A stretch of 59,401 nucleotides of DNA, from NCBI GenBank assembly GCA_027490255.1, contig JAIXYM010000118.1, forward strand, positions 1 through 59,401, in the 5' to 3' direction. The stretch is from Oxalobacteraceae bacterium. Its GTDB lineage: Bacteria; Pseudomonadota; Gammaproteobacteria; Burkholderiales; Burkholderiaceae_D. A program made the translations under genes and the position numbers. Positions 32,632 through 55,366 of the stretch are shown piece by piece; the stretch's first letter is position 1, and every line of letters begins with the position of its first letter. The notes under the pieces are model-generated. The model was not told the origin of the DNA and ran no database searches. It saw nothing but the letters and a program-made list of their open reading frames with translations.

Positions 32632-32638
32632 GCCCTCC

Positions 32639-34615: not shown

Positions 34616-34653
34616 GTTGATTCCTGTGATCGCTGTGCATCCGATATCGCGGT

Positions 34654-35343
34654 TCAGCGGCTTAATTGTTCAAGTTCTGATTTAAGTTGCCGCAGGGTCG
34701 CGTTGATCTCTACCTTGCGATTGAATTGTTTTTCCTTTTCCAGCTTGGCGGCGACGGTGGCCACCTCCCGCTTAAGGGCTCGTACCTGTTCGAAGCGCTC
34801 GACCAGCGCGACCAGCGGTTCGAGTGTGCGAACTGGCAGGGGAATCAGTCGATACAAAAGCTGCTGATACAAGCTTGCAAGATCCAGCGCCAGCGGCATG
34901 GCGCTGCGCTTGCCCGCAGTAGGCACCCAGTCTGTCGAAAAATAGTCTGAGAGCACCCAGCGACTGGCGTCAGCTTCGCTCGGGCGCTTGTAGCAGGCGA
35001 CGACCTGCGTGCAGCTCTCGAAACCCAACTCGAAAACTATCGGGAACTGCACGGCACCGTCGATCGCGCGCAACACATCGTGGTTGAGCGCTGGCGTTTT
35101 GAGCTGGATGCTGAATACTTGGATCTCTGGAACGCCCGGCCTTGTCGGCAGGTTGATGGTTTCGGGGGCAAGCTTGTATTGCCAGACGATCTGCTCGACC
35201 TCTTTAACGAACAGATCCTTGAGCCTGGTATTGGCGTTACTGTGTTCGTAGAGCTTATTCTTGGGCAGGGGCCGGCCGAAGGCGGCCTTGGCAGGGTATC
35301 TGACCATTGCGGGATGCGCGTGCAAGGTGCCGAATTGAGTCAT
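34654..35343 (-). CDS. DUF4391 domain-containing protein
   Basis: 229 residues. Conserved DUF4391 features: LYEHSNANTRLKDLFVKEVE, QIVWQYKLAPETINLPTRPG, IQVFSIQLKTP, and AIDGAVQFPIVFELG. The C-terminal 60 residues form a coiled coil (VERFEQVRALKREVATVAAK). It begins in an ATGA overlap with the helicase gene and so is cotranslated with it. Members are recurrently found between a large SNF2-type helicase and type III Mod/Res, implying a fixed accessory role. Function unknown; a PD-(D/E)xK-like fold is conceivable but not shown. Confidence 0.85.
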   Translation of the reverse strand: MTQFGTLHAHPAMVRYPAKAAFGRPLPKNKLYEHSNANTRLKDLFVKEVEQIVWQYKLAPETINLPTRPGVPEIQVFSIQLKTPALNHDVLRAIDGAVQFPIVFELGFESCTQVVACYKRPSEADASRWVLSDYFSTDWVPTAGKRSAMPLALDLASLYQQLLYRLIPLPVRTLEPLVALVERFEQVRALKREVATVAAKLEKEKQFNRKVEINATLRQLKSELEQLSR

Positions 35344-38300
35344 TCAGTCCCCTTGATAACCAGAAAACCGATCAACTCGAAGTCATCGAGACCGGAGATG
35401 TTCTGAGTTAGCGCCGTGGTCCTTCCCCCGGCGAACAGACTGTCGAGGTCCTTTTGTTCTTTGACCTCGATCATCGAGCGAACAGCTTTGTTGAGGAGCT
35501 CGGAATAAGGCTGCATCATCCGACCGTCGGCCGTTTCTCGGTTAAACCTTTGGCATACTTCCGTGATGGGAAGCGTCTGTCCTTTACAACAGCTACGCAC
35601 CAGATCCAGAAGGCGTTTGACCTCGGTGTGATCATGAACAACTTCGCCCTTGTGGTTGATATAGATGAGGTAGTACGGGTGCAGCCGATTATGTTGGGGC
35701 AAGTGGGCGGGCGGGTTGACGCCTGCATTTTGATTACGTAACGTAAAGATCACACCAGGCTGCAGTCCCAAGTCTGGATTCGCGGCCACGACCGCGTGCA
35801 GGCCGCGTGGCATGTTGTTGAGGTCGCCGTGGACCTTGACGTAGTTCAGCAAGTCCATGCGGAAGTCATTAAGGCCAAGGTCTGTAATGGACACGCCAGT
35901 TTTAAGCTCTTCCAGCTCAATGACTTCATCTTGCATACGACGCAGCTGTTCTTTGCGGTATGAAACGTCGTTTGCTTGGGCGGAGAGCACGTTATCGTCG
36001 CCGGTGGCGGTAACGTCGGCGATCATCATGCGACTCTCGACGCGCTCCTTGAGATTGATGTACTCATCCAACGAAATGTCCGGCCAGTAGTTCACTAACT
36101 GGATGCTGGCATTTGGCGATCCGATGCGGTCTATGCGACCGAAGCGCTGGATGATTCGCACCGGATTCCAGTGGATGTCGTAATTGATGACGTAGTCGCA
36201 GTCCTGAAGGTTCTGGCCTTCCGAAATGCAGTCAGTGCCGATCAGTAGATCTATCTCAGCTGCTTCGTTTGGCAGTACGACAGCCTTTTCCTTTGCGCGG
36301 GGCGAGAACAGAGTTAGGAGTTCCTGAAAGTCATAGCCCTTGGTCAGGGTGGATTTAGGCGTGTCCGTGCCGGTAACTTTGGCTGTATGGAGGTTTTGGT
36401 TGACAAGAAGCTCGGTCGCCAGGTTGGCGTACAGGTAGTCCGCAGTGTCGGCAAATGCAGTGAAAATCAGTACCTTGCGATTACCGGGGTTGATCGGGTG
36501 GGCGATCTTTTCCAGCAAGTGCGCCTTCAAATGCTGCAGCTTGGCGTCGTTATCTGCACTGATCTTTCGCATCGATGTAAGCAGCGCCACGATTACCTCG
36601 AGGTCGTTTTTGAGCTCATATTCCCATGAGGGCAAGTCCATGTCGGCAAGGCTCACCTTGACCTTGCCACCAATCTCGCCGCCGCCTTCAAGTCCTTCAG
36701 GCAGTTCATCTTCGTCGACGCCCAGGGATTCGAGCGCATCGGTCAGGTCGCTCACGCTCACGGCGCTGCCGGTTTGATTGAAACTGGCGATCTTAGCCAG
36801 ATTCCCCTCGTAGTTTTCGCGCAAGGATTGAAGCGTGAGGCGAAACGCGGCTACCGAGCTTTCCAGTCGCTTCAGCAGGTTGACCGTCATCAGCGCCTGC
36901 AGGCTTTTTTCACGGTCAGCCTGCCGTAATGTGCCCTTAACTCCGACCTTCGTATCGTACAAATCTTCGTACTTCTTTAGCCGGCTAGGCAAGATGTAGC
37001 TTACTGGAGCATAGACAGCGAGTTTTAGCCGGGATAGCTGTTCGAAGATTTCGTTGAAGCCCATCACGTCCGTCTGCTGGGTCAGGGGTCGATGGAACGA
37101 TAGGGGTTTGCGGCGCTCCGGGAAGTGGCCGATATCCTTGGTGTCGTAAAAAGTCTGAATATGCTTGCGTGAGCGCGCGATTGTGACGCTATCGAGTAGT
37201 TCGAAGAAGTCGAAATCCAAAGCATCCAGAATGGCGCGCACGGTGCGTTGTTCCGGCGGCAACTTGGCCCAAGCGTTGAATGCCTTCTGAGCGTTGCGGA
37301 AAACCTCTTCGACCGACTTGCTGGTCCGCAGCTTCTTGTTCAGGCTTTCTGAGTCACCTTCATAAGCCAGCGCCAGCTGGTTGCGCAGGTCATTGAATCG
37401 GTTATTCACAGGCGTCGCGGAGAGCATCAGCACCTTGGTCTTTACACCCTCACGGATGACCTTATTCATTAGCTTCTGGTAGCGGGTCTCCTTTTCCTTA
37501 AAGGCGTCGTTGTTGCGAAAGTTGTGTGACTCATCGATGACGATGAGGTCATAGTTTCCCCAGTTGATGCGGTTCAGCGGTGTGCCGAAAGACTCCCCGC
37601 TAGTGCGGCTCAAGTCCGTGTGGCAAAGGACGTCATAGTTGAAGCGATCTTGTGCAAAGATGTTTGTCTTTAGGTTGCGGTTGTAATTGAGCCAGTTATC
37701 GGCCAACTTCTTGGGACACAGCACCAGCACCGAGCGGTTGCGCAACTCATAGTACTTGATCACTGCTAGAGCCGTGAAGGTCTTGCCCAGACCGACGCTG
37801 TCGGCAAGGATGCAGCCGCTGTAGGTGTCCAGCTTATTGATAATCCCAGTCGCGGCGTCTTTCTGGTAATTGAAGAGCTTGTTCCAGATGATCGTGTCCT
37901 GGTAGCCCGTGCGGTCGTTGGGCAAGAGGTCCTCATCGATATCATCTAGGAACTCATTGAAGATGTTGTAGAGCATCAAGAAGTAGATGCTCTCTGGGGA
38001 GTTCTCCTGATAGACGGACGAGATGTGCTCGCAGATTTGCGTGGTTACGTCTTCCACTTTCTGGGGGTCATTCCAGATCTGTTCGAATAGATTTAAGTAG
38101 GTGGAAGTGAACTGCGGGTCATCCAACTTGTTTACCAAATTAGAAACTGCGTTGCCTCGCTGGTAGCCCAGATCGACTGCCGTGAATCCGTGCAATGGCA
38201 TGTAGGCGACGTCGGTGTCCGCAGACTGCACGCATGCAAATGGCTGCATGGGGGCCCTGCTTCGATTGCTCTTGAAAGTCGCCTTGCGCCGTAGCCAGTC

Positions 38301-38627
38301 GGCGCATTCCTTTGCGATGGCTCGCTGATTGAGCTTGTTTCGCAGCTTAATCTCGAACTCGCTGCCGTAGAGGCTATGTTGGCGGTCGAGTCGGGGAATG
38401 TGAAACTCACGGCGCTCCCGGCGAATCTCATCGGTCACTTCATCGGCGATGAAGGCGGGCGCGGTAAAAATGAAGCTCAGTTCGTCGATCTTTTCCAGCT
38501 CTGCCTTCAGTGCTTCGAACGCGTACATCGAAAAGCAGGAAGCCGCGACCTTCAGCCGGGCTCCCGGTTTGAGAGTCTGCTTGAGGTCGTCACCGAGCAG
38601 GTGGCTGATGTTGTCAATGAGTTCCAT
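35340..38627 (-). CDS. Large SNF2-type helicase with N-terminal PLD-like domain
   Basis: 1095 residues. The N-terminus (about 1-150; KVAASCFSMYAFEALKAELE, ELSFIFTAPAFIADE) resembles the phospholipase D-like domain found before such helicases. The motor has Walker A ILADSVGLGKTFTALAVIKY (275-283), DESH at 365-368 (LIVIDESHNFRN), motif III MLSATPVNNRFNDLRNQLAL, and motifs V-VI in LIGTDCISEGQNLQDCDYVI and QRFGRIDRIGS. The C-terminal 250 residues are unassigned. Second gene of the restriction operon. The helicase may move along DNA or remodel protein complexes for Res; this is unproven. Confidence 0.9.
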   Translation of the reverse strand: MELIDNISHLLGDDLKQTLKPGARLKVAASCFSMYAFEALKAELEKIDELSFIFTAPAFIADEVTDEIRRERREFHIPRLDRQHSLYGSEFEIKLRNKLNQRAIAKECADWLRRKATFKSNRSRAPMQPFACVQSADTDVAYMPLHGFTAVDLGYQRGNAVSNLVNKLDDPQFTSTYLNLFEQIWNDPQKVEDVTTQICEHISSVYQENSPESIYFLMLYNIFNEFLDDIDEDLLPNDRTGYQDTIIWNKLFNYQKDAATGIINKLDTYSGCILADSVGLGKTFTALAVIKYYELRNRSVLVLCPKKLADNWLNYNRNLKTNIFAQDRFNYDVLCHTDLSRTSGESFGTPLNRINWGNYDLIVIDESHNFRNNDAFKEKETRYQKLMNKVIREGVKTKVLMLSATPVNNRFNDLRNQLALAYEGDSESLNKKLRTSKSVEEVFRNAQKAFNAWAKLPPEQRTVRAILDALDFDFFELLDSVTIARSRKHIQTFYDTKDIGHFPERRKPLSFHRPLTQQTDVMGFNEIFEQLSRLKLAVYAPVSYILPSRLKKYEDLYDTKVGVKGTLRQADREKSLQALMTVNLLKRLESSVAAFRLTLQSLRENYEGNLAKIASFNQTGSAVSVSDLTDALESLGVDEDELPEGLEGGGEIGGKVKVSLADMDLPSWEYELKNDLEVIVALLTSMRKISADNDAKLQHLKAHLLEKIAHPINPGNRKVLIFTAFADTADYLYANLATELLVNQNLHTAKVTGTDTPKSTLTKGYDFQELLTLFSPRAKEKAVVLPNEAAEIDLLIGTDCISEGQNLQDCDYVINYDIHWNPVRIIQRFGRIDRIGSPNASIQLVNYWPDISLDEYINLKERVESRMMIADVTATGDDNVLSAQANDVSYRKEQLRRMQDEVIELEELKTGVSITDLGLNDFRMDLLNYVKVHGDLNNMPRGLHAVVAANPDLGLQPGVIFTLRNQNAGVNPPAHLPQHNRLHPYYLIYINHKGEVVHDHTEVKRLLDLVRSCCKGQTLPITEVCQRFNRETADGRMMQPYSELLNKAVRSMIEVKEQKDLDSLFAGGRTTALTQNISGLDDFELIGFLVIKGTE

Positions 38628-38635
38628 GACTACTT

Positions 38636-38848
38636 TCAGATCTGGTCTCTGTTCACAGAATCAATTGCCGACTGAATCTTGATCCACCCATCGATATCGG
38701 CCTTCGAAAATCTCCAACTACCGCCCACCTTGAAGGCCGGAATCTGCTTCGCCCCAGCCAATCGGTAGATGGTTCGCTCAGTGACCTTGAGGTAGTCGGC
38801 GACTTCCCCGATGGTCATGATGGCATTGTCCGCTGGGCTCGCTGGCAT
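38636..38848 (-). CDS. Helix-turn-helix (excisionase-type) DNA-binding protein
   Basis: About 70 residues of HTH_17 type: MTIGEVADYLKVTERTIYRL, AGAKQIPAFKVGGSWRFSKA and DIDGWIKIQ. Start uncertain: MPASPADNAI at 38848 is listed; the frame is open to an ATG at 38884 and MTIGEV at 38818 is the minimal family start. None has a good ribosome binding site. It is the first gene of the restriction operon, 8 bases before the helicase. Such proteins act as small regulators or recombination directionality factors; an upstream 9-bp dyad suggests autoregulation. Confidence 0.75.
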   Translation of the reverse strand: MPASPADNAIMTIGEVADYLKVTERTIYRLAGAKQIPAFKVGGSWRFSKADIDGWIKIQSAIDSVNRDQI

Positions 38849-38894
38849 GGTCTTGGCCAGGTGGTTGGTATAAAACAACAGCATAGTGCAAAAT

Positions 38895-39177: not shown

Positions 39178-40317
39178 TCACCAAGTAACTTGAAGCGTCC
39201 GCTTGTCATTTTGCCTTTCGGTCAAGCTTGTTTTTAAGCCTTGGTGCTGGATCCATTTTATCAAGCCATCAATTCCGACAAAATCTGGCAAATACATGAA
39301 TCTGGATCCGATGCGTACGCCCTCTAATCCGTGCTCATTGAACTTGAACCAGATTTTCAGGCTGCCTTTCTTAACGTTTGCTAGCAGACTCCGCCGAATT
39401 TCCAGAAGTAGCTCATGGGAATCGCCTTCCGCAAACCAGTAGATTTTCCGATAATCACCAGAGAATGCTTTTCCGCTCCTCGGTTTACGCCGCCAACAGA
39501 CAATTATTTTACTTTTTTTCCTGTCTTTTAAAGACTTCTCTACCGATCTTTCTTCTCGCAAAAGTTTATCGTGCGTCGCAACGATTCGGGCCGTAGCATC
39601 GATAACTTTGCGCGCCCGGTCGAGCAAAATATGTTCTTCGCTCGGCAAAGTCTTGAGAGCAAGAAGGCGCCCCCTGATAAATTTTCTCATACGGACGTCG
39701 TCCCAACCAAGAAGTCCATAGTGCAAGCGCAGGTCGTCCACTGATCCGGTCGCGAGCAAGTCGCGCTCGACTGTCAAAGGATGATCGCTCACCCATTGCG
39801 ACAACCTTCGGAGCTTGTTCTCTACCATTCGCGATGAAAAAAGTTGATGTATCGGTTCTTCCTCGTCGATCTGAGGTTGTATATTGATTGGTGAATAAAC
39901 CCTGCCGTAAACTTCGGAAAAATCGTTGATCCACTCGCGACTTTGGGCGCAGAGTTGGGATTTCTCACTTTTTATGAGCGCCAACCTTCCCTCCAAGTTT
40001 TTATAACCCACTTCATCATTATCTCGGTAGATCGCTACCGACCTGAACTCAAAACCTAGTTGTTCGAGATGATCTTGATACGCTAGGGCTTCGGACGTGG
40101 CATCGATAAATTGTTTATGCAGATATGACGCAGATATGCATTTTTTAAGTACTGACCTGATTGCCCGTGCCTGATCCAGCTCATGCTTTTTAAGAGCAGC
40201 AGCATCGGCTTTGGCGCGTGCCGCTTTTCTGGCCGCATTAGCTTTTTTCAGGCGTTCGGCACGCTCCAGCTCGGAAAGCCTGGTCCGGATTTGGTCAATG
40301 ATTAATTCGGCAGCCAT
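39178..40317 (-). CDS. Uncharacterised protein at the end of the dynamin/Hsp70 cluster
   Basis: 379 residues, no recognised domain. The N-terminal 55 residues are a charged Ala-Lys-rich helix (AARKAARAKADAAALKKHEL). A helical middle has several Arg/Lys-rich segments (MRKFIRGRLLALKTLPSEEH). The C-terminal 110 residues look beta-rich and basic: IIVCWRRKPRSGKAFSGDYR, KIYWFAEGDSHELLLEIRRS, GVRIGSRFMYLPDFVG. The gene begins 273 bases after the Hsp70 stop and has the same direction, so it may belong to the same operon or have its own promoter. Function unknown. Confidence 0.65.
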   Translation of the reverse strand: MAAELIIDQIRTRLSELERAERLKKANAARKAARAKADAAALKKHELDQARAIRSVLKKCISASYLHKQFIDATSEALAYQDHLEQLGFEFRSVAIYRDNDEVGYKNLEGRLALIKSEKSQLCAQSREWINDFSEVYGRVYSPINIQPQIDEEEPIHQLFSSRMVENKLRRLSQWVSDHPLTVERDLLATGSVDDLRLHYGLLGWDDVRMRKFIRGRLLALKTLPSEEHILLDRARKVIDATARIVATHDKLLREERSVEKSLKDRKKSKIIVCWRRKPRSGKAFSGDYRKIYWFAEGDSHELLLEIRRSLLANVKKGSLKIWFKFNEHGLEGVRIGSRFMYLPDFVGIDGLIKWIQHQGLKTSLTERQNDKRTLQVTW

Positions 40318-40590
40318 AACTCAAACTTATTCTCTATCGCGCTTAGGCCCTACAAATAGTCGCCGGCTAACGAGTGTTGCCACCTGAAAAATTTGCTAGC
40401 TCGTATCTGACCTAAGGCTTTCATTCAAAGAAACATTTTTATCCAGTCACCGGCAAATCGCCGGACTAGAAGTTTTCTGTTCTGCTGCCTAGATACCCGT
40501 TAAATCGGACGACAGTCGGGAGCGACCAAACCCAAACTTGCCATTCCCGCTGATACGCCATCATCATGCAGGCTGGTACCGGCCGTATCT

Positions 40591-42405
40591 TCAGTTTGCC
40601 TGATGGCCTACCGTATTTACCGAACCGTTGTCGACGGGCAGCCCGGATGCACATCGACAAAGGGGGTCATTTGATGAACGGCCGCAAATCGAGCAGGGAA
40701 CGTAATAAAGGTGCTCCTCGATCTGAATTTTCGGAGGGCACCGCTCCACCCTAAAATAAAAAGGGTTATCACGATAAAGCACCTCCCCGGGGATGAGGCT
40801 GTAGTCCTCGCGGTCTGCAATATTGGATCGGATGGCCAGCGATCCAATCTCGCGAGCCTCCGGCTTTCCATCCTCGCCCATTGGGGTCGCACTGCCCCAA
40901 GGACTTCGGGACACGGGTGTTGCCAACGCAAATTCGAGATCGTATACCTCGGCAACAGCCTGCCCTTTTTGGTTCAATGACCAGGCAATTGCCGTTAGCA
41001 CAAGGTTTTCATCGATGCTCACTTCTAAGGCAAGCCTCTCGCGAAATGGACTAGCTTTACTGTCCACCTTAACGACCATATTGCATAGGGGACGGCGCTG
41101 ATCATTGTCGGGGACACGCGGGCCAGGGCGGTGCGGAGCGACCAAGTTGAATTTCCCATATCCGTCGCTTGGATCTGTGCAATACAAGTCGAACCGGTCG
41201 CTCCGTCTCTCTCGCTCGGTAGGCATTTCAGTACCCGCCGGGATCAGGGAAATGTATGAATTTCTAGCCAACGCGAGCTCGATGTTTTTCGACAGGTGCA
41301 GCCGGGATTCATCGTGCGCGACCCAAGCCGCTCCCTCCGCAATCGCCGATGCGCTCTGCTTGGAAACATGTACTCGTCCGGGTCCAAACAGCTCATCAAG
41401 GCGATTTTTCACTAGCGGCATGTTCACCATTCCACCGGTCGCCAAGCAGAGCTCGACCGACGCTGTAGAATACCCCTCGCGCTCCAGTAGCCGCTCTATT
41501 CGGGTGATTCCTTTTTTGACGAGGTGTCCGACGATTGAGTGGAGATCATCGCGGGACATATTCACCGATAGTGCCGCTTGCTCATCATCTTGATAGTAAG
41601 GATCAACATCAATATTCCATGTGGTTCGCTCGCTCAGGCGTATCTTGGCATCCTCACATTGGTGCAACAGCCGTTTCCGTGCGTCAGGAAGAACTTCGAT
41701 ATCGTCTTCTAGGCCAAGCTCCAACCGGGATCGCTTCTCAACCTCATTGCGCAACTCCTCATCAAAGATGTCCCCACCTACTTCTTCTGTCCCGTCATTG
41801 GCAATCTGGATCAACAGTCCGTTCAAGACGCGACACAGCGTGAGATCCAATGTGCCGCCGCCCCAATCGAAGACTAGCAATAGCTTTCCTTCATAACGCC
41901 GGATGAGATCATCGGTGTCCCGAGAAGTTCGGAAATAACCGTATAGAGCCGCCAGCGGTTCATGAACAAACTGCACTACGCTCATGCCAGCCTGTCTAAA
42001 GGCTTGTCGTAGAAGGGCACGCCGCTGTCCGTCCATGTTAACCGGTATGGTGGCAACAACGCGATCAAAGGCCTTGTCGCTACCTGCGCTCGTCTGGCGC
42101 GCGAAGTCCCTGACGTGGGTAAGCACGTATTCGACAATCTTAACTGGATCCCTGCGCACTCCCTCGATTATTTGCTCCTCTCGTCCCAGCAGCGTCTTCG
42201 GTGAGCGGACGATGCTCCCCTGGACGCCCAAACCTGCCGACGTCAACCTATCGCGAGCTTTACGGCCCACCTCAACCTTGCCTCCCTCGAAGCTTACAAC
42301 GGAGGGGATAGGTCGATTGTTGTCGAGAAATGTAATTACCTCATCTCCGTTGACCATCGAGATCAGGCTGTTTGTTGTTCCGAAATCAAATCCCACGACC
42401 GCCAT
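40591..42405 (-). CDS. Hsp70-family protein with divergent C-terminus
   Basis: 604 residues. Actin-like ATPase motifs: VVGFDFGTTNSLISM (phosphate 1), VVATIPVNMDGQRRALLRQA, FVHEPLAALYGYF (connect 1), VFDWGGGTLDLTLCRVLNG (phosphate 2), ATGGMVNMPLVKNRLDELFG and SAIAEGAAWVAHD (adenosine). A short beta-rich part (FRERLALEVSIDENLVLTAI) recalls the substrate-binding domain, but the usual lid is absent. The last 30 residues include CSICGRSSNDPLCRC, which could bind zinc and is not normal for DnaK. It overlaps the coiled-coil gene by 20 bases. It is probably a dedicated component of this cluster rather than a housekeeping chaperone. Confidence 0.88.
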   Translation of the reverse strand: MAVVGFDFGTTNSLISMVNGDEVITFLDNNRPIPSVVSFEGGKVEVGRKARDRLTSAGLGVQGSIVRSPKTLLGREEQIIEGVRRDPVKIVEYVLTHVRDFARQTSAGSDKAFDRVVATIPVNMDGQRRALLRQAFRQAGMSVVQFVHEPLAALYGYFRTSRDTDDLIRRYEGKLLLVFDWGGGTLDLTLCRVLNGLLIQIANDGTEEVGGDIFDEELRNEVEKRSRLELGLEDDIEVLPDARKRLLHQCEDAKIRLSERTTWNIDVDPYYQDDEQAALSVNMSRDDLHSIVGHLVKKGITRIERLLEREGYSTASVELCLATGGMVNMPLVKNRLDELFGPGRVHVSKQSASAIAEGAAWVAHDESRLHLSKNIELALARNSYISLIPAGTEMPTERERRSDRFDLYCTDPSDGYGKFNLVAPHRPGPRVPDNDQRRPLCNMVVKVDSKASPFRERLALEVSIDENLVLTAIAWSLNQKGQAVAEVYDLEFALATPVSRSPWGSATPMGEDGKPEAREIGSLAIRSNIADREDYSLIPGEVLYRDNPFYFRVERCPPKIQIEEHLYYVPCSICGRSSNDPLCRCASGLPVDNGSVNTVGHQAN

Positions 42406-43756
42406 GGTCTACCCCCTGAAGGTTATTCATCTCTTTACGAAGCTCATCGAGCACATGTTCGGCCCGTTCCGTCATGACCCGGAACCGGGGCGGATCACTG
42501 CGCATCGCTGTTAATCCCACCTCCAGCATGTCGATGCTCTCGGACAAGCGATTCGCTACCCTCCCCTGAAGCTGCTCTAAATGGTGTAGAGCCCTGGTAA
42601 GTTCAATCGCGTGCTGGCGACGCAAGTCAGCCGCCTCGACTTCCTTTTGCTCCCGCAGGGCACGAAGTTCAACCAACAATTGGTCTCGACTTTCTACCAG
42701 TTGATCACGCGAAGTTTCCAATAAAGATAGCTGGTTTTGCAAATCAACCTGCAGACGTTGACTTATCTCTTTTTCATTTCGCGCTTCGATCGCTTGCTGT
42801 CGGAAGCGATAGCACGCTAAACCAGCACCGGCAACATGCTCTATTTCGGTAAGTACCTGAAATCGTGCTGTATCGTCAGGTAATATGCGACTAGCCGGAA
42901 GCCAGAGCCCCTCGAACAGCAGGGCAACAAGTTCTTCACTACCAAAGCCGCGGTGGATCGCAGTCCAGGTGGCAAACAAATAACACGCATTGCGCTTCAG
43001 CTGGTTTAGGTCCGACTCCTTGAAATGCATGGAGCTGCTGTCAGTCGGAATTGCAAGATTTTTTATCTTCTCCAACGCGGCAGATGGCGCGGGGCCATCC
43101 GGAAGGTTTCGTATCGCGGCCTGGATGCCGGTATCGGAAAATGCTGGATGTCCCGTAATTACTTTGAAAACGAAATCGGTGATTGAGGACCTAATCTCCG
43201 GAAACCCGTTGATTTCACGGGTAAACAGCAGAAGCTGTCTCGGAACTGCCAAAACCTTGTCCATGGAGGCCAACTGAAGGAGCCGTGCGGTCGCTAAATC
43301 GTCGAGGCGGCTGTTTTTAGATATACGCCTCTCAGCTCTCGGCTTCATGGAAATTCGTTGTCCCTTCCGGCCGTACGCATACTCAATGAATTGCTCGAGT
43401 GTCTCGACCTCGCTCTTGGGCACCTTAGTTACCGGACGGCCTTCCCGGCCTCCTCGTCCCTGCAGATCCCCAGAACTGACAACCTCTACCTCGGACAAAA
43501 GCCCGGTAGAAGCAACCGAGGCCATAGCTTCTACCGGTTTTGTCGCATCAGGTTGCCGCGCCAGAGAATCGTTTTTCGCCGGAAAACTTTCTAGCTCGGA
43601 ATTCCCGCTGACGAACGAAATGGTCGGAGGCACGCAGTCGTTGCTGTCGCGCTTCGCCCGATCGTGGCCGGCGCCAAGCGCATCATTTACCGAACGCATC
43701 TCACCAGTTTTGACATTGAATACGCGCCCCTCTCGCTTTTTTGGTTCATCGTTCAT
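42386..43756 (-). CDS. Hypothetical protein with C-terminal coiled coil, next to the Hsp70 gene
   Basis: 456 residues. A low-complexity N-terminal 130 residues precedes a helical region (about 140-330; FIEYAYGRKGQRISMKPRAE, ITDFVFKVITGHPAFSDTGI). A long coiled coil follows (about 320-420; LQVDLQNQLSLLETSRDQLV, ESRDQLLVELRALREQKEVE). Its last residues resemble GrpE in layout (coiled coil then short helices) and the gene is coupled to Hsp70 by a 20-base overlap, so a dedicated nucleotide-exchange or adaptor role is conceivable but not shown by homology. It overlaps the upstream C2H2 gene by 11 bases. Confidence 0.65.
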   Translation of the reverse strand: MNDEPKKREGRVFNVKTGEMRSVNDALGAGHDRAKRDSNDCVPPTISFVSGNSELESFPAKNDSLARQPDATKPVEAMASVASTGLLSEVEVVSSGDLQGRGGREGRPVTKVPKSEVETLEQFIEYAYGRKGQRISMKPRAERRISKNSRLDDLATARLLQLASMDKVLAVPRQLLLFTREINGFPEIRSSITDFVFKVITGHPAFSDTGIQAAIRNLPDGPAPSAALEKIKNLAIPTDSSSMHFKESDLNQLKRNACYLFATWTAIHRGFGSEELVALLFEGLWLPASRILPDDTARFQVLTEIEHVAGAGLACYRFRQQAIEARNEKEISQRLQVDLQNQLSLLETSRDQLVESRDQLLVELRALREQKEVEAADLRRQHAIELTRALHHLEQLQGRVANRLSESIDMLEVGLTAMRSDPPRFRVMTERAEHVLDELRKEMNNLQGVDHGGRGI

Positions 43757-44930
43757 GGTTTTCTAGTCGCTCCATAATTGCTTTATTCCAGACGGTCGTC
43801 TCATCCATCGCACCCAACTCTCTCGCTAATTTTCTTGCCTCAGCGTACGACCTTTCATCATTAGTTGCCGCAAGTGCCTCGCAAGTCAGGAGTATCCGCT
43901 TCATGCGATCATATCCGCCGGTTTTGTATCTACGGGTCCTCTTCAATAATTCTACCGACTTCCCCTTCAACGACAACAGCCCCAAGCCGGCATCTGTCAG
44001 GATTTCAAGGGTATCCTGGTCCGTGAGCAGATTTTCTACCGTTCCTACTGACTGGGCATCGAGGGTTTCATCAAAATGCCAAGGAAATCCCTCGAGGAGC
44101 CCGCCGAATGCGCCAGCGACATTACGTAAAATGCCGTCGCATGCTATTGCCTCAGCCAAGTTGAATTGATTGAAATGAAATGCAATCAGGCTCCGAATGG
44201 CGCGCGCCAGTGGACGGTCAATACCGGACAATTCATCTACTGCCTGCAGGTAGCGCTCCGCATACTGCTCATATTTCAAGCCGCTATCCGGCAATCGTTC
44301 CTTCGCCATTACGCCGTAAAGATAATGACACACACCATCGCAATATGAACCGGCACTCGGAAATGATTTGCAGTCATTGATGAAGCGAGCTATAGAATCA
44401 AGGCTTAGGTCTCGCCCATGAGCAAGGCGGCTCAATGCATCCTCAACGCCCGCTAGGTCGAAACCGTCTGCAATCCGGAAATCGAGCTTAAGTCGCGTCC
44501 GCGCACTCCCGTTACGAAGTTCAAGGTCTAAAAATGCAAGTTTTTTTTCTGATAGTTGCCAGCCCAATGAGGCCGGCTCAATTTTTTTCCCATTAAGGAA
44601 GCATTCCGTCACATCCTCGAGCGATACACTCGAAACATCGAGAGCGGTCAAGATCTTTATGGAAGCCGAGCCTTGTGGATGCCCACCAATTAGCAAAGTC
44701 GGTTGACGAAGCGGATGCTTTTCGAATCTATGTTTTCGCAACCTCTCAAGATTTGTATACGATTTTGCGCATACTTCGCAAATATATCGTTTTGGCGGAG
44801 GAGGCGCATAAACCATTTCACCAAGCCCAGTGGGCTCATGAAACTCCGCGTAGCCCGTGTGCCAAAAACCCATCTTTAAAATCCCCTCATACATGCCCCA
44901 AGCTTTGCCCAGCTCGGATAGCTTGGTCAT
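43746..44930 (-). CDS. Hypothetical protein with a C2H2-type zinc finger
   Basis: 394 residues. Near the N-terminus lies YICEVCAKSYTNLERLRKHR: C51, C54, H67 and H72 fit the C2H2 pattern C-X2-C-X12-H-X4-H, which is uncommon in bacteria. A beta-rich segment follows (about 75-150), then a helical repeat-like C-terminal half (EQYAERYLQAVDELSGIDRP, AEARKLARELGAMDETTVWN). The finger may bind DNA, RNA or another protein. It starts 29 bases after the dynamin gene and overlaps the next gene, so it is part of a tightly packed operon. Function unknown. Confidence 0.7.
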   Translation of the reverse strand: MTKLSELGKAWGMYEGILKMGFWHTGYAEFHEPTGLGEMVYAPPPPKRYICEVCAKSYTNLERLRKHRFEKHPLRQPTLLIGGHPQGSASIKILTALDVSSVSLEDVTECFLNGKKIEPASLGWQLSEKKLAFLDLELRNGSARTRLKLDFRIADGFDLAGVEDALSRLAHGRDLSLDSIARFINDCKSFPSAGSYCDGVCHYLYGVMAKERLPDSGLKYEQYAERYLQAVDELSGIDRPLARAIRSLIAFHFNQFNLAEAIACDGILRNVAGAFGGLLEGFPWHFDETLDAQSVGTVENLLTDQDTLEILTDAGLGLLSLKGKSVELLKRTRRYKTGGYDRMKRILLTCEALAATNDERSYAEARKLARELGAMDETTVWNKAIMERLENHER

Positions 44931-44959
44931 GGACTACAGCCCGTTCACCTGAAACTTCT

Positions 44960-47878
44960 CTACGCGACATTTGCAAGACGATGACCCGGCCGGCAAAACA
45001 CATCGATCTCGGCCTCCCGGACGCGCCGGCTAGCAGCGCGGTGTTCCGCCAAGCCTACCGCGGGCTTGAAAATATCCAGGCCCCGGCCTAATTTGAAAAG
45101 TATGCCGTGATCCAGAATCAGGAAGCGGTCATGAAGGCCACCTTCACGTTGCAGCGACAAAGTGACGCCGTAATTCTTGAACAAATCCTTGACAACGTTC
45201 TCCACAATTTTGTTCTGGTATTCGACGCGGTCAGCCGGGGCGAATGCAGTCACCACCTCGATTTCGCGCGGATGCGCAGATTCGGCTACATGGAGAAAAA
45301 ATTCTCTGAGGTTACGTAACTGGTGTGGACTGGCGAGATAAGGATCCACAAGCCTGATTCGGTTCGCACCGGCCAGAAACTTGTGATCAAAGACTTTTTC
45401 GAATGGCCAACCAGTCATCCCATCCCGCAACCGAAGTCGATGAACTGTCACCGTTGCCTGCTCGCGGATCTCATCGGCCCAACTCATAAACGAACCAGCG
45501 AAACCGTTTCCACTGCCATCTGGGTATGGGCTCATCGAATGTTCCAACTCCCGGATGGATTTCGCTGATCGCAGAGACTTATCCTCGTCGGACCGCTCTG
45601 CCACATTTTTCTCTGCGGATTCGACACTTAAGCTCCGGCTCGCATCGGGCCCTTCAATAGCGCCTACGTTCGGCTCTGCCATCTCGCCAGCGAAAACCAA
45701 TAAGGCACGAAACTCATTCTTGATCACATTCACCTGAGCCTCGGTCGACTGCTTTTGACCAGCAATGAGGGCCACAGCAGCGGCACGTATGTTGTCGTCT
45801 GCTTGCTCCAAGAGCACATGAACTTCGTTTAACGCATGTCGTGGCGCGCCTTTGGCCTCATCAACAAGGAAATCACCAAACGCCCGTATTCTTTCCAGCA
45901 AGTGATGCTGCAGCGCTTCAGTCAACAGATTTTTGACCTCGCGATAAAAGGTTTGTACTTCGGCAGATTGCGTGATGGTAGTTCCCTTGCCAAACACGCT
46001 CGCAACATTGAAGCGCGCGGCATCAATCAGCTCCGACACTTCCTCTGTCACGAAATCATCCAGCAGAGAAATCACCCGTTGCTCTTCAGCTTCGGTAATC
46101 TCCTGCGCCCGCGATAGGGTTCGCTGCAGGGATTCTTTTAGCTTCGAGGTCACGTCCAACGGTATTGTCGCCCCCAGTTCCAAAGAGTCCGAAATTCGCT
46201 CTCCATCGTCCGCCAGTGCTTTCAAGTAGGTCTCGAAACTCTTAGCAAAGTCGGCGAACGCTTCTGTGTATTGGCCGAGCATTTCCTGGACTTTTGGAAA
46301 GATTCTGTTCGCAACCTTTTTTTGGAAATCGAACATGTAGCCCCAATACCCGGATCGCCTGGAACGCCAGTGGCGCCCGATGTCGAGCGTCTCGAAGGCT
46401 GCAATCTCCTTTTCTGCCAACAGGGATACATTTTCAATCAAAATGGCATGGTATTTCCGCTGGGTTTGAAGCAACGCGGTCAATTGCTCCGTCCGCTGAT
46501 GGGTGGCACCTGCAAACCTTTGGCTAGCCTGCTCAAATTCCTCACGAAAGGTACGAAGCTTCTGCTCCGCCACCTCCCTATCTTTGATGTTGGTGATTGC
46601 AAGCAACTTGGTTTCCAATACGAGCTGGAGATCCAACAATGCTGCTCTCGAACCTAGCGCCAGTCGCTGGGCTGCCACTGCAATTCGAGACTCGACCGAC
46701 AGCATGTGCAACAATCGGCTAGTGAGCTCAACTACGCCCCCGGGATCGGAGTCGTAAATTGCGCAGGATGTGGGCTTTTTGGCTGCCCAGTCGCGATGAA
46801 GCTTGGCGGAAGTAAAGGCGATCTCTACGTCTCCTAATTGTTCGCGGTAGCGCCGTATCGCAGGGGAATCATCCTGGCCCATTTCATCAAGCGTCGCATT
46901 AAGCTCCTTGGCCAAACGTTGCCGTTCGCGTTCAATACGGCAGCTTACGCTTTCAGGATCCTCATCGTTAGCTTCAGCGTTATCAAGATGCTGTTGATAG
47001 GTGACATCTAATTGAGTAATTACGATGATTAGCTGTTTGACGTTGCCTTTCCTTAGCAGGGAAAGGAGAAAGTCCTTGTCTGATTGTCCGTAGGATTCCC
47101 CTGATTTCGCCAAAAATAATACGGCATCAACGTCTTCAACGGCCTTTTCGGTCAGACTGACTCGGAAGCGCTCCGTATCATCGAGCCCCGGCGTATCGAT
47201 GAGCATGACTCCTTCATCTAGGATTGCCGCAGTTGATTCGATGTCGATGGACTTGACCAAGCAGTGATGGGGCTTGGTTCCTGACGTAAATTCCTTCAAA
47301 CGTCGCCGAAATTCGGTTTCATCTTTCTTGCTTCCTTCGGCACCAAGTTCAATGGTCAAGTTGAAACCATCCTGTTTCAGATAATGATCTTCGATAGCCT
47401 TGAGGTCGAACACTTGCTCTAATTCGCCATCTTTGTTTTTCCTAGGTTTTTCAAAACTACTCCACATTTTTATCCGATGAGCGTCGATATGCTTGGGATC
47501 CTCTCGGTACAGAATTTGGAGCTTCTCCCAATCTTCCAGAGAAACAAAGCGGACCGTTGCCTTTACCCGCGGGCCGTGCCGGAACGTCGTGATTGCTGCC
47601 GTCTCCGGATTAGTGTCCTCACTGGCAAGCCTCGCTCCGAGCAGTTCGTTTACAAAAGACGACTTTCCAGTCTTAAAACGCCCCACAACAGCTACTTTGT
47701 AATGCTCCGGCAGCTGCTGGGATTTCAGCAGCTCTGAAAGGATGTCTGCCGTTCGTCTGCACTCCTTCCCTATTTGCGCTATTTCGATATCCGCCTTACT
47801 GGTCAAGGCGTCTCGCACCTGGGTCACATGGCTGACAAGCGTGCGAATATCATTTCGAATCTGGCGGGGGGACTTCAT
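44960..47878 (-). CDS. Dynamin-like GTPase with C-terminal MITD1-type domain
   Basis: 972 residues. GTPase domain: G1 VAVVGRFKTGKSSFVNELLG (66-73), G2 around TNPETAAITT, G3 LIDTPGLDDTERF (228-231), G4 VITQLDVTY (288-291). A long helical stalk-like region (about 400-780) includes many Glu/Lys/Arg heptads. The C-terminus (about 807-972) resembles the phospholipase-D-like C-terminal domain of eukaryotic MITD1: IRLVDPYLASPHQLRNLREF, EGGLHDRFLILDHGI (HDR at 916-918), FKLGRGLDIFKP and EIDVFC. In MITD1 this domain binds phosphoinositide membranes. The fusion suggests a membrane-acting GTPase. First gene of the cluster, start MKSPRQIRN at 47878. Confidence 0.85.
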   Translation of the reverse strand: MKSPRQIRNDIRTLVSHVTQVRDALTSKADIEIAQIGKECRRTADILSELLKSQQLPEHYKVAVVGRFKTGKSSFVNELLGARLASEDTNPETAAITTFRHGPRVKATVRFVSLEDWEKLQILYREDPKHIDAHRIKMWSSFEKPRKNKDGELEQVFDLKAIEDHYLKQDGFNLTIELGAEGSKKDETEFRRRLKEFTSGTKPHHCLVKSIDIESTAAILDEGVMLIDTPGLDDTERFRVSLTEKAVEDVDAVLFLAKSGESYGQSDKDFLLSLLRKGNVKQLIIVITQLDVTYQQHLDNAEANDEDPESVSCRIERERQRLAKELNATLDEMGQDDSPAIRRYREQLGDVEIAFTSAKLHRDWAAKKPTSCAIYDSDPGGVVELTSRLLHMLSVESRIAVAAQRLALGSRAALLDLQLVLETKLLAITNIKDREVAEQKLRTFREEFEQASQRFAGATHQRTEQLTALLQTQRKYHAILIENVSLLAEKEIAAFETLDIGRHWRSRRSGYWGYMFDFQKKVANRIFPKVQEMLGQYTEAFADFAKSFETYLKALADDGERISDSLELGATIPLDVTSKLKESLQRTLSRAQEITEAEEQRVISLLDDFVTEEVSELIDAARFNVASVFGKGTTITQSAEVQTFYREVKNLLTEALQHHLLERIRAFGDFLVDEAKGAPRHALNEVHVLLEQADDNIRAAAVALIAGQKQSTEAQVNVIKNEFRALLVFAGEMAEPNVGAIEGPDASRSLSVESAEKNVAERSDEDKSLRSAKSIRELEHSMSPYPDGSGNGFAGSFMSWADEIREQATVTVHRLRLRDGMTGWPFEKVFDHKFLAGANRIRLVDPYLASPHQLRNLREFFLHVAESAHPREIEVVTAFAPADRVEYQNKIVENVVKDLFKNYGVTLSLQREGGLHDRFLILDHGILFKLGRGLDIFKPAVGLAEHRAASRRVREAEIDVFCRPGHRLANVA

Positions 47879-48431
47879 TAAAAGTTATCTCCCAATAACA
47901 GGTTTACGCTAGAAGCAAATCGTATTTTTTGTGTCAAACAAAAATGGTGGGCGTTCGTAATCACATTCGCAGCAGCCCGTCGAAAACCGCTCTTTTCATA
48001 TATGAAAGGCGCTTGCGCTCCCATAATGCCCCACTTAATCAAATACGACTGCGACTATTCCAAATTAAACAATAGACCAATACCGCCGTACGACCAGAAA
48101 ACTTAGCGCACTCCTTCTAGTTCGGAACGCACTGACGTGAGACCTTTCTTGAATCTTAATTGGAAGACGCCCTTCGGCGCAGAAATAGTTCAATGCGTAA
48201 CGCTCCATAATCGTTTCAGCTTGTCCCAAAAGTTGATTCAGGAAGACCTTCACATTTATATATTTTTCTTTTGTTTTTTATCGTAAAAAATTAATTTAAT
48301 TTTTTCGATTTCGCCTATAGTCTTTACATCGACATAATTAATAAATAAGGTTGGTAGAATGCGTTTCACTATTTCCGATCCATTCTTCCATTTGATATTA
48401 CAAAGGTGCTGATAATTTTTCTATTAAACCA
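47879..48431. other. Divergent intergenic region between the dynamin gene and the WYL gene
   Basis: No supported gene. It contains the palindrome TTTCATATATGAAA (47994-48007), about 116 bases upstream of the dynamin start, a candidate operator. The right half (48254-48431) is strongly A+T rich, suited to a promoter for the WYL gene. A possible 62-codon frame at 48065-48253 with a GTG start has no supporting features. Confidence 0.5.
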
Positions 48432-49409
48432 ATGAACCGCCTAGAACGCTTCTACAAAATCGACCAACTCCTCCAAGACCGCAAGGTCATCAGTCGAGAC
48501 GATTTTCTATCGATCCTTGAAATCTCCCTAGCCACCTTCAAGCGCGATCTCGAATACATGCGCGACCGGTTCAACGCGCCCGTCATCTACGACCCTGAAC
48601 TTCGCGGCTACCGATACGAGAAGTCTTCATCCAACAAAACCAAATTCTCCCTGCCCGGTCTTTGGTTCTCAGAGCAAGAGATCTTTGCTCTAATCACCAT
48701 GCAGCAATTGCTTGAGAATCTTGACCAGGGCAGCATCATCGGTCCCCACATACAGCCTTTTCTTGCTCGTCTCGACGCCGTCATCGGCGAAGGTGAATCC
48801 TCGTCCAAAGAAATCCGCAAACGCATCAAGCTCGTTGAGATGGGCCGCCGGGTTCAGGGCAGTCATTTCTTCTCCGAAGTAGGTGTTGCACTCTTCAAGC
48901 GCCAGCGCATCAAAATCCAGTACTACGCTCGCGCCAGTAACCAAATCACGCTGCGAGAAATCTCGCCCCAGCGCCTGATTCATTACCGCGACAACTGGTA
49001 CCTCGATGCCTGGTGCCATATGCGTGATGGTCTGCGGGGGTTTTCTCTTGACGGTATCCGCGCCATCACGACGGTTAACAAAAAAGCTACGGAAGTCCCC
49101 ATCAAATCGCTCGATCAGTTTCTCGCTGCCAGCTACGGCATTTTTGCGGGCGAATCCAAACATATTGCCAAGCTTAAATTTACCCCTGAACGCGCGCGTT
49201 GGGTAGCGGCTGAGCTTTGGCATCCGGACCAGAAGGGCTCATTTGATGAGTCTGGTGCCTATATTCTTGAATTCCCCTACTCCGATGACCGTGAGCTGCT
49301 GCTTGATATCGCCAAGCACGGCGCAGCAGTTGAGGTGCTGTCGCCCAAGGCGCTGCGTGACAAGGTGCGCCAAGAACACGAGGCGGCTTTCTTGCAATAT
49401 CAGCATTGA
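48432..49409 (+). CDS. WYL-domain transcriptional regulator
   Basis: 325 residues. N-terminal HTH of the HTH_11/DeoR-like type (LERFYKIDQLLQDRKVISRD, LEISLATFKRDLEYMRDRFN), then the WYL domain: RIKIQYYARASNQITLREIS, PQRLIHYRDNWYLDAWCHMR, GLRGFSLDGIRAI; and a C-terminal WCX extension (LKFTPERARWVAAELWHPDQ, LEFPYSDDRELLLDI). WYL proteins sense nucleic acid or nucleotide ligands in characterised cases, and BrxR and CapW of this family repress anti-phage systems. It diverges from the dynamin cluster with a 553-base spacer, so it is the likely regulator of that cluster. Confidence 0.88.
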   Translation: MNRLERFYKIDQLLQDRKVISRDDFLSILEISLATFKRDLEYMRDRFNAPVIYDPELRGYRYEKSSSNKTKFSLPGLWFSEQEIFALITMQQLLENLDQGSIIGPHIQPFLARLDAVIGEGESSSKEIRKRIKLVEMGRRVQGSHFFSEVGVALFKRQRIKIQYYARASNQITLREISPQRLIHYRDNWYLDAWCHMRDGLRGFSLDGIRAITTVNKKATEVPIKSLDQFLAASYGIFAGESKHIAKLKFTPERARWVAAELWHPDQKGSFDESGAYILEFPYSDDRELLLDIAKHGAAVEVLSPKALRDKVRQEHEAAFLQYQH

Positions 49410-51580: not shown

Positions 51581-53980
51581 ATGAGCACTACTTCTGAATC
51601 CTCACGCGACGCCCTTCTCAGCACCACTATGGGCAAATCCGTTCTGCTGCAACGCGTTGATATCACCGCCAGCGTTGATGGTTTGATTTTTACGGTCAAG
51701 GCACGTCAGTTTTACAAGAACACCACCAGCAAAAATGTGGAGACGATCTATACCTTTCCACTGGCCTGGGGCTGCACGCTGCTGGGTTTGACGGCGACGA
51801 TGGCCGGCAAAGTCTGGCAAGGCACGGTGCTATCCAAATCCGAAGCCGAAGAAAACTACGAAAAAGCCATCAAAGACGGCGACACGCCCATCATGGTCGA
51901 GCAATCCGGCAAAGGTCTTTATACGGCGCATATGGGCAATCTGAAGCCTGATGAAGAAGCAATCATCGAGATCGAATACGCGCAACTGCTGCGAATCGAA
52001 CAAGGACAGGTGCGGCTCTCCATTCCCACCACGGTCGCACCTCGCTATGGCGATCCCGTCAAGACCGGCAAGCTCAAAAAACCTGCCTCGGTTGGTGCGA
52101 GCCGCGGGGCGTCTTATCCCTTGTCGTTTGATCTCGCCATTACAGGGCCGCTTGCCAAAGGCGCGCTTGCTTGCCCTAGCCATCAGGTCAGTGTTCGCTC
52201 GGATGAGGGCAAGACGCTCGTTAGTTTGAGTCGTGATGGCTATCTGGATCGTGATCTCGTGCTGGTGTGCGATGGTGTGGAGAGCGCCGGTGTATTTGCG
52301 CTGGCCGAACATGGCGGCGAGTATCCGGCGCTACTGAGCTTCACGGCTGAGGCCAGCGCAGAGGTGCGTCAGCAAGCCACTGAAATTGAACTCAAGATTC
52401 TGGTGGACTGCTCGGGCTCGATGGAGGGTGACAGTATCGAGCTCGCCCGCAGGGGTCTAAAGTCGCTGCTGCCGCTGTTGAGCTCTGTCGATAAGGTGTC
52501 TTACAGCCTGTTTGGCTCAAATACCCAGCGCAAGGTGGCGCGCATGACTGCGGCAACGCCTGAGTTCAAGGCTCGCACATTGACACCTGCGATCGCTAAA
52601 ACTACTGCTGATCTGGGTGGCACAGAGATGCATTCGGCATTGAAAGATACCTTCGCGATTGTGGCCGATGGTAGCGAGCGTCCGGTGAATATCCTTCTGA
52701 TTACAGATGGCGAAGTCTGGGATATTGAAAACACGATCCAATCCGCCAGAGAATCTAATCATCGGATTTTTGCAATCGGTGTGGGTAGCTCGCCGGCCGA
52801 TAGTCTTTTACGTGAGATTGCTGAACATAGCGATGGCGCGTGCGAGCTGGTGTCACCCAATGAAGATATGGCCGCCGCGATGCAACGTATGGTGACGCGC
52901 ATGCGTCAGGGTGTGGTGGCTGGCGTATCAGTGGATTGGCATGCACCGGTTGTCTGGCATGCGCCTATTCCGAAGGTGATTTATCCAGGAGAGACGATTC
53001 ATCTTGCGGCGGTGTTGGGTAGCCGACCTGCTCAAGCGCCTGTGCTTTCTGCGAGTGCGTCGCTTGTATCTCTGGTGGCAGTGGCTGATATGGCTGTGGG
53101 GGCGGTGGGTTTGACAGCGTCAAGCACCTCGCCATCAGACCCAGCGGAGAGTACGCCGCGTGTATCTCCTTCTGCAGTGGCTGAGTTGGCAGAAGGCTCT
53201 GCAGCTTTGTCGGGTTCAAGCACTCCGGTATCAGCCCTCACGCGTATCGTGGGTGCCAAGCGTGTACGCGATGCAGCGACGACCGAGGCCGCAGGTCAGC
53301 TGGCGGTGAAGTACCAGCTGGTGACAGAGCACACGAATCTCTTCATGGTGATAAACCGTGCCGCTGACGACAAGGCGCTGGGCTTGCCGGCACCGCATCA
53401 GATAGAACAGATGGTGGCTGCGGGTTGGCACGGGATGGGGTCAGTCAGACCTTCACAGGCATCGGCTGGTCGCGTGCTGTACTCAATGTCGCGTTCGTCG
53501 CTTTTGTTGAGTGCCGTTAGCTACTCGCGGAAGAGAGAAACACCGCGTTATATGCGCCGTGCTGATGAACCCGACATGCTCGGCATGGAGCCTATGGCCT
53601 TGCTAAGTGTGCTGGAGGATGTGTCGCTGTCGTGTACGGATTTTGAAGATGCCATGACGCGGTTCTTGAATTGCGATCTGCCTTCGGAAATCGATGATGT
53701 GATTCAATCAGTGGCCGATACCTTGAGTGATCGGGTGCTGGCTTGGGCAGTGTTTTTGGAATGGCTGATCAAAGCGCTCAATCAGTACAAACTCGCGCCG
53801 CGGCAGGTGAAACGGCTGCTGGACCATACGCTGTCGGGTGTGATGGATGATGTGAAAGACGATATCCATCGAGATCTGAGTAAGCGACTGCCAGGGGTTA
53901 CTGAAGGTGGCTGGGGGACGCTTGCTTCGGGTGATGATGAGTTGGATTTTGAGGCGTTGATTGCTCGGCAGAGTATTTGA
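51581..53980 (+). CDS. VIT and VWA domain protein (inter-alpha-trypsin inhibitor-like)
   Basis: 799 residues. The VIT domain is N-terminal (about 15-145; VLLQRVDITASVDGLIFTVK, FPLAWGCTLLGLTATMAGKV, EENYEKAI). The VWA domain has the metal motif LVDCSGSMEGD (DxSxS at 276-280) and ADLGGTEMHSALKDTFAIVA, LLITDGEVW. A low-complexity Ala/Ser/Val/Pro linker follows (about 480-550), then a C-terminal helical region. There is no signal peptide or transmembrane segment, so it is cytoplasmic in appearance. ATG at 51581 has AAGGAG upstream. The role is unknown. A smaller VWA protein without VIT is encoded at 16708. Confidence 0.88.
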   Translation: MSTTSESSRDALLSTTMGKSVLLQRVDITASVDGLIFTVKARQFYKNTTSKNVETIYTFPLAWGCTLLGLTATMAGKVWQGTVLSKSEAEENYEKAIKDGDTPIMVEQSGKGLYTAHMGNLKPDEEAIIEIEYAQLLRIEQGQVRLSIPTTVAPRYGDPVKTGKLKKPASVGASRGASYPLSFDLAITGPLAKGALACPSHQVSVRSDEGKTLVSLSRDGYLDRDLVLVCDGVESAGVFALAEHGGEYPALLSFTAEASAEVRQQATEIELKILVDCSGSMEGDSIELARRGLKSLLPLLSSVDKVSYSLFGSNTQRKVARMTAATPEFKARTLTPAIAKTTADLGGTEMHSALKDTFAIVADGSERPVNILLITDGEVWDIENTIQSARESNHRIFAIGVGSSPADSLLREIAEHSDGACELVSPNEDMAAAMQRMVTRMRQGVVAGVSVDWHAPVVWHAPIPKVIYPGETIHLAAVLGSRPAQAPVLSASASLVSLVAVADMAVGAVGLTASSTSPSDPAESTPRVSPSAVAELAEGSAALSGSSTPVSALTRIVGAKRVRDAATTEAAGQLAVKYQLVTEHTNLFMVINRAADDKALGLPAPHQIEQMVAAGWHGMGSVRPSQASAGRVLYSMSRSSLLLSAVSYSRKRETPRYMRRADEPDMLGMEPMALLSVLEDVSLSCTDFEDAMTRFLNCDLPSEIDDVIQSVADTLSDRVLAWAVFLEWLIKALNQYKLAPRQVKRLLDHTLSGVMDDVKDDIHRDLSKRLPGVTEGGWGTLASGDDELDFEALIARQSI

Positions 53981-54027
53981 GTCAGGGCTTGTTCGTTATT
54001 GCTGGAGTCATTGGGTTATCGATTAAC

Positions 54028-54406
54028 GACGCTGGATCCCAGCTTTCGCTGGGATGACAGTTTTGAAGTTAACGATTTTTTCAAATTTCTACTTGCGCAC
54101 GCCGGGATGACGGTAATTTGTTGAGGCGCCGGTAACATTCCCACCGTCATCCCGGCGCAGGCCGGGATCCAGTGTCTTTCGTTGAACACAAGTCGGCCCA
54201 ATAATCGTGATCCCGAACCAGCGCAAGAATCTACCACTGACCTCAAAATCGTCATCCCAGCGAAAGCTGGGATCCAGCGTCTTTCGTTGCATACAAACAG
54301 CTTAATTACCTAGGATGACGGTGGGAATGTTACCGACGCATCATCAACTCCCGTCATCCCGGCGCAGGCCGGGATCCAGCGTCTTTCGTTGCATACAAAC
54401 AGCTTA
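54028..54406. repeat. Cluster of palindromic repeats
   Basis: At least four copies of the CCCGGC-GAAA/GCAG-GCCGGG or CCCAGC-GAAA-GCTGGG family in mixed orientation: 54028-54058 (reverse), 54144-54183, 54250-54290 and 54351-54390. The last two continue with the same GCATACAAACAGCTTA. A 22-base sequence at 54131-54152 recurs inverted at 54313-54334. The flank GTTGAGGCG before the copy at 54144 also occurs in the long repeat at 23725. No gene is placed between 53981 and 54484. Some of these hairpins may act as terminators. Confidence 0.85.
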
Positions 54407-54484
54407 TTTACTAACTTCTATCAGCCAAAAGTTAATATCCAAAACCATTAACCACGCACCCATTAAAAATAACACCGCACCCAA

Positions 54485-55360: not shown

Positions 55361-55366
55361 TCAGAT

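Follow-up and report, generated by a model that had tools for sequence, protein, structure and literature searches.

A conserved gene trio encoding a C2H2 protein, a coiled-coil protein and an Hsp70-family ATPase, and its dynamin-like and defence-related neighbours

Related defence and conflict systems

In Dynamins/Eleos defence, which comprises the LeoA/LeoBC gene pair, a bacterial dynamin-family GTPase is the presumed membrane effector. We know of no trio with an Hsp70 in this type of defence. Dynamins/Eleos systems are named in PMC11811056. The DO-GTPase/HSP70/tubulin systems (Kaur et al., 2020; PMC7159879) are mobile conflict clusters that likewise unite a GTPase with an HSP70. DO-GTPases and GAP1 define them, accompanied by GASH or FNIII proteins, and the idea common to them and the locus described here is chaperone thresholding; chaperone-controlled conflict systems are in this respect an already known kind (PMC7159879). 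In CoCoNuT systems, an Hsp70-like nucleotide-binding domain (NBD) is likewise found beside coiled coils in restriction islands. According to the consulted part of their description, the Hsp70-like units are fused to McrB or McrC homologues, have a degenerate Walker A-like motif and are predicted to bind RNA (PMC11090510). Lastly, type 1 BREX has six core genes, encoding BrxA, BrxB, BrxC, PglX, PglZ and BrxL, and no Hsp70 is among them in the consulted sections of PMC13326643. The text on BREX in PMC12839542 contains no Hsp70, and a survey of BREX from 2026 does not mention an Hsp70 or a dynamin. BREX can be accompanied by WYL regulators of the BrxR kind, one of which was shown to repress its defence operon, as stated in the part of PMC9122601 that was consulted.

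The locus described here lies in a stretch of 59,401 nucleotides from an Oxalobacteraceae bacterium (contig JAIXYM010000118.1), which we call the window. Compared with the DO-GTPase systems, its GTPase belongs to the dynamin family instead, and no GASH, FNIII or GAP1 proteins are recognised; its genes 2 and 3 match no Pfam family above cut-off (Pfam not being confirmed to hold GAP1 models). The locus differs from CoCoNuT in that the catalytic residues of its Hsp70 are intact, and Pfam, applied to 18 window genes, shows no McrB or McrC homologue, which places it outside that class. With type 1 BREX it shares a WYL protein and, in its dynamin, a tail of the MIT_C type that some BrxL proteins have, but the trio and the dynamin are not BREX core genes and the window has none of the latter: six BREX proteins from one of the loci discussed below (L006) have no match in the whole window at 1e-10, and the locus does not classify as type 1 BREX. 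In the window's genome, no PglZ was found by PF08665, a model that matched two of 14 control genomes and was not tried on L006, nor was an L006-type PglZ or BrxC found in searches run without a positive control. The original prediction knew of no named defence system with this gene set. This agrees with the absence of PADLOC-DB matches (2023 version) for genes 2 to 5 at E ≤ 0.01, and no description of the trio was found in the literature and the defence catalogue searched.

Gene layout of the window locus

Five minus-strand genes and a divergent WYL gene had been described at this locus, a layout that the ORF positions bear out. Gene 1 (44960-47878, 972 aa), an optional component, encodes the dynamin-like GTPase, with Dynamin_N and a C-terminal MIT_C (PLD-like) domain. 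The three core genes follow: gene 2 for the C2H2/TPR-like protein (first listed as an ORF at 43746-44930, 394 aa), gene 3 for the coiled-coil protein (42386-43756, 456 aa) and gene 4 for the Hsp70-family ATPase (40591-42405, 604 aa). As originally described, genes 2 and 3 overlap by 11 bases, genes 3 and 4 by 20, and genes 1 and 2 are 29 bases apart with the ORF as first listed. The start of gene 2 is most likely at 44873, because its relatives start at MGFWHTG, and a GAGGGG stretch lies shortly 5′ of this ATG. Judged by sequence, gene 2 most likely spans 43746-44873, encodes 375 aa and is separated from the dynamin gene by 86 bases.

Gene 5 (39178-40317, minus strand, 379 aa) is an orphan ORF, 273 bases from gene 4. 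A protein search covering 5.77 billion proteins, from which 7,997 candidates were scored, retrieved nothing other than the query, and the ORF has no match in the 37 loci searched; it is probably outside the system. At the other end, the divergent gene (48432-49409, plus strand, 325 aa) encodes a protein with WYL (2.5e-17) and WCX (1.4e-15) matches above the Pfam cut-off and a weak HTH match below it (0.084). In the intergenic region between the dynamin and WYL genes (47879-48431), short inverted repeats are present at 48285-48305 and 48296-48341, while promoter and terminator scans gave no excess compared to shuffles.

On the same strand as the trio, which lies upstream of it, a type III restriction-modification (RM) island identified by Pfam and PADLOC (29518-38884) begins 293 bases past gene 5. 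It consists of genes for an HTH_17 protein (38636-38884), an HKD+Snf2 helicase (35340-38627), a DUF4391 protein (34654-35343), a type III Mod (32639-34615) and a type III Res (29518-32631), all on the minus strand. Beyond the WYL gene, the plus strand at 51581-57223 encodes a VIT/VWA protein, an unassigned ORF and a DUF3857-transglutaminase protein.

The conserved trio and its neighbours

The C2H2 finger of the gene 2 protein falls under the Pfam cut-off (E 0.04). Its C-x2-C-x12-H-x4-H pattern is invariant in all 20 relatives from the protein search, and in 41 of 41 sequences when rows from the loci are added. The predicted structure comprises the zinc finger, a beta domain and a TPR-like solenoid. 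This modelled fold would suit an adaptor at least as well as the C2H2 sensor proposed earlier. The coiled-coil protein is predicted to have a low-confidence N-terminus, a helical domain (120-303), a 112-residue helix (308-419) and a further helix (425-452). It has no Pfam family over the cut-off (a single chance-level match) and no PADLOC or NCBIfam family. For neither predicted model did Foldseek return a PDB match at E ≤ 0.001. The coiled coil finds no support as a GrpE exchange factor: the hhalign probability against GrpE is 5.5%, and reversed-profile controls score no worse part by part. A J-domain gene did not come to light either, short of a dedicated search.

Gene 4 encodes an Hsp70 NBD, as the Pfam HSP70 model matches residues 3-363 with 4.9e-42. 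The match ends at profile position 372 of 599, and the C-terminal part of the protein is without a Pfam match. Residues D7, K70, E149, D180 and T185, whose catalytic roles we take to be those of their DnaK counterparts, are kept in 25 of 25 rows. A CxxC...CxC motif at 571-585 is conserved as well, with C571, C574 and C583 in all 25 rows and C585 in 24.

A profile of gene 2, run against one genome per species for 84,980 species, yielded 33 loci. C2H2, coiled-coil and Hsp70 genes occur in the same order and on the same strand in 27 of the 28 loci with a full-length gene 2, one of which (L005) has its Hsp70 gene split into two ORFs; at the sole exception (L027), the contig ends about 700 bases past gene 2. 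The five remaining loci are one cut by a contig end (L030) and four with only N-terminal pieces of gene 2 (L032-L035). The 27 trio loci, many of them metagenome bins, belong to Pseudomonadota, Candidatus Binatota, Nitrospirota, Acidobacteriota and Actinomycetota. Moreover, the distances of the trio proteins correlate, with Mantel r values of 0.89 (22 loci), 0.92 (20 loci) and 0.93 (19 loci), each computed for loci that occur as locus rows in both alignments and none equalled in 9999 permutations. Within the window's kin, a relative of gene 2 is absent from the other 55 of the 56 genomes searched; it is therefore an accessory element.

The proposed unit of five genes was not recovered in these comparisons. 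Genes 2 to 4 recur as neighbours in other genomes, often in or by BREX or restriction genes, whereas no relative of gene 5 was found, dynamin relatives are present in seven of the 27 trio loci, and WYL relatives, searched with a three-sequence profile, in two of 37 loci, once before BREX genes (L004) and once divergent from a dynamin gene (L010). The WYL-WCX protein is likely a regulator of the window locus and not part of the conserved core.

Several further occurrences were observed. In L032, a 98-aa ORF (10007-10303) located after a BrxL-like gene, whose tail is of the MIT_C type, has MGFWHTG and the C2H2 part only; a partial stretch in L033 matches this ORF. These may be cases in which the N-terminal module of gene 2 occurs alone, or remnants. 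The trio is also found on two viral contigs. One of these, from a viral collection (L036), has the trio together with a complete BREX operon, and its Hsp70 is nearly identical to that of L006; the contig may be a mobile element or may have been misassigned. On two Paenarthrobacter plasmids (L042, L043), gene 2 of the trio is broken by an IS3 element in both, and the trio adjoins genes for a GIY-YIG nuclease, a helicase and a DNA methyltransferase.

Counted raw, without a random-locus control for enrichment, seven of the 27 trios lie inside type 1 BREX operons with at least three BREX core proteins (L003-L006, L011, L012 and L017; PADLOC identities of the BREX genes were checked on L006). Recurrence inside BREX operons extends to a remnant in L014, where a PglX remnant of 112 aa and an Orf5/DUF262-type gene stand next to the trio, and to the viral contig L036. 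The C2H2 gene starts 2 bases past the PglX stop in L003-L006 and L036, and in L004, L006 and L036 there is an overlap of 4 bases between the Hsp70 stop and the first possible start of PglZ. With L014 counted as BREX, 19 of the 27 trio loci are without type 1 BREX genes. Eight further loci have a PADLOC-named gene in the fetched DNA: a type II methyltransferase (L008), a DUF1156 methyltransferase (L009), a BrxC-like piece of another kind than type 1 BREX together with PsyrTA (L010), a DrmD-like, DISARM-like helicase and a IIG-type enzyme (L018), a type I restriction enzyme beyond one integrase (L021), HmaB, with the trio between a helicase and HmaB (L023), a type III-D Cas7/Csm3 (L025) and an MkoA-like gene (L029). 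In the other 11, the proteins checked revealed no named defence system; PADLOC was applied to 40 chosen proteins across the loci, with none from L020, a 4.7-kb contig. These 11 include a locus with a PADLOC candidate HEAT-ARM_XIII and an HNH protein (L031), one with a fragment clustering with helicases (L013) and one with an ABC-type ATPase (L015). In L021 (8051-15752), the trio is located between two same-strand integrase genes, one recognised by Pfam and the other by reading of the sequence, like the cargo of an integrative element.

The Hsp70 tree (30 rows, L005 left out) places all 13 rows labelled dynamin or BREX, including the L014 remnant and L036, within one clade of 14 with support of 100/100. 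The window Hsp70 pairs with that of L003, an Aquabacterium locus with both BREX and dynamin (support 98/99, 78% identity).

Possible functions of the trio and the dynamin

Together, the genes at 40591-44873 make up a cassette of three whose order is conserved over five phyla. We tentatively read it, with a confidence somewhat short of even, as a dedicated chaperone machine that would hold or remodel proteins of a neighbouring defence system. The observations behind this reading are the gene order, the correlated divergence, the insertion in BREX operons, the Hsp70 residues and the GTPase and MITD1-like domains of the dynamin. The zinc-finger/TPR-like protein would be the adaptor that chooses the client, and the coiled coil would likely dimerise and bridge it to the Hsp70. 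The latter may act as an ATP-driven holder, whose ATP turnover would set the threshold for client release. The client in a BREX locus would be PglX or PglZ, produced alongside the trio; in the window, it would be the dynamin. The WYL protein would repress the window locus until infection.

The strongest rival, to which we give a rather low probability, is that the trio is an assembly chaperone that folds or assembles the very large BREX-like proteins without any sensing, and that lingers or serves another large partner after the partner system has been lost. Such a role is consistent with the embedding of the trio between pglX and pglZ, including the start and stop contacts, and with its retention in L014 beside the PglX remnant and the Orf5/DUF262-type gene. 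However, the type 1 BREX systems studied so far have six core genes and no Hsp70 in the consulted parts of PMC13326643 and PMC12839542, so BREX can work without it. The 19 trio loci without type 1 BREX genes, such as L021 with its flanking integrase genes, argue against this role as well.

A stand-alone defence module is unlikely in our view. In that case, the trio would sense infection, by the zinc finger on nucleic acid or by the Hsp70 on viral RNA or protein, and would have no fixed client, BREX and RM genes being mere neighbours in the island. Its partners do vary widely, L021 has no adjacent partner (its type I restriction enzyme is on the far side of one integrase), and the Hsp70 homologues of CoCoNuT are RNA binders by prediction in the part of PMC11090510 consulted. 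The exact position within BREX operons nevertheless argues against mere neighbourhood, and the intact catalytic residues of the Hsp70 stand against the degenerate Walker A-like motifs given for CoCoNuT in that same part.

For the chaperone machine proposed here, the dynamin is the candidate client in the window. Gene 1 belongs to the dynamin family (Dynamin_N, 1.2e-22 by Pfam), and the residues of G1 (GxxxxGKS) and G3 (DxPG) are present in nine of nine rows. Its tail, overlooked in the original prediction, matches MIT_C with 1e-21 (residues 823-961) and aligns to MITD1 (2ymb) with 1.6e-11. PADLOC gave a BrxL profile (2.4e-19, residues 807-961) and two weak profiles, all over the tail, and no Eleos or Dynamins match, the presence of such a model in the library being unconfirmed. 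As in the window dynamin, the C-terminal PLD-fold domain of MITD1 has an HDR...GRGLD motif; MITD1 has an MIT domain and binds ESCRT-III, whereas the PLD-like domain of the window is fused to a dynamin GTPase. The PLD fold of MITD1 binds membranes, as indicated by the title of Hadders 2012 and a PI(4,5)P2 table entry in PMC9776629. The MITD1-like tail strengthens the earlier claim that the dynamin is a membrane effector, which we regard as likely. Once released during infection, it would assemble on the membrane by this tail.

The dynamin relatives in seven trio loci adjoin gene 2 in L007-L010 and L012 (at 22 or 33 bases) and occupy another position of the BREX operon in L003 and L011. The other 20 trio loci have no relative of the window dynamin within the fetched DNA, and the membrane-effector step therefore covers a minority. 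L025, outside the dynamin/BREX clade of Hsp70, has another dynamin-family gene (14764-16248) after the trio and a GTPase fragment (9334-9717) before it, with type III-D CRISPR genes near; these GTPase genes are a second link of trio and dynamin. A Thiodictyon plasmid (L002, 15001-17844) carries a dynamin-MIT_C gene of 51% identity and no trio within 15 kb.

That the C-terminal domain of the dynamin is a DNase of the HRD type, like the one proposed for BrxL-HKD, is quite improbable; the GTPase would then be a nuclease effector instead of a membrane effector. The PADLOC BrxL profile covers this domain, section 19 of PMC12839542 predicts activity for HRD variants of BrxL, and the window dynamin has the H, the R and the D. 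Across the family, H916 and R918 are present in nine of nine rows, but the third residue is D in six (including the window) and G in three, and the complete H-x-R-x4-D motif is not kept. MITD1, a known membrane binder, has the same HDR...GRGLD motif, its third residue being N.

That the trio consists of proteostasis genes without a defence link, carried by chance on mobile DNA, is the least probable explanation, as the intact Hsp70 ATPase site and the 11 loci in which no checked gene is a named defence gene would allow it, but seven trios are internal to BREX, eight more have RM, Hma, DISARM-like, toxin-antitoxin or CRISPR neighbours, and the genes are missing from the 55 other kin genomes searched, as expected of an accessory island gene.

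A bolder form of the chaperone proposal, which we regard as doubtful, is a portable Hsp70 immune switch: a self-contained cassette that would plug into DNA-modification defences of unrelated kinds (BREX, Hma, DISARM-like, type I and III RM), firing whichever effector is coupled to it, including a dynamin with a membrane-binding PLD tail of the MITD1 type. To our knowledge, the restraint of BREX effectors is an open question, and a chaperone cassette between pglX and pglZ would offer a direct handle on it. The trio provides a testable context for two protein families that no Pfam, NCBIfam or PADLOC model matches above cut-off. If the proposal is true, this Hsp70 would have evolved for immunity and not for protein folding, and the MITD1-tailed dynamin would link a bacterial defence effector to the ESCRT-III abscission domain.
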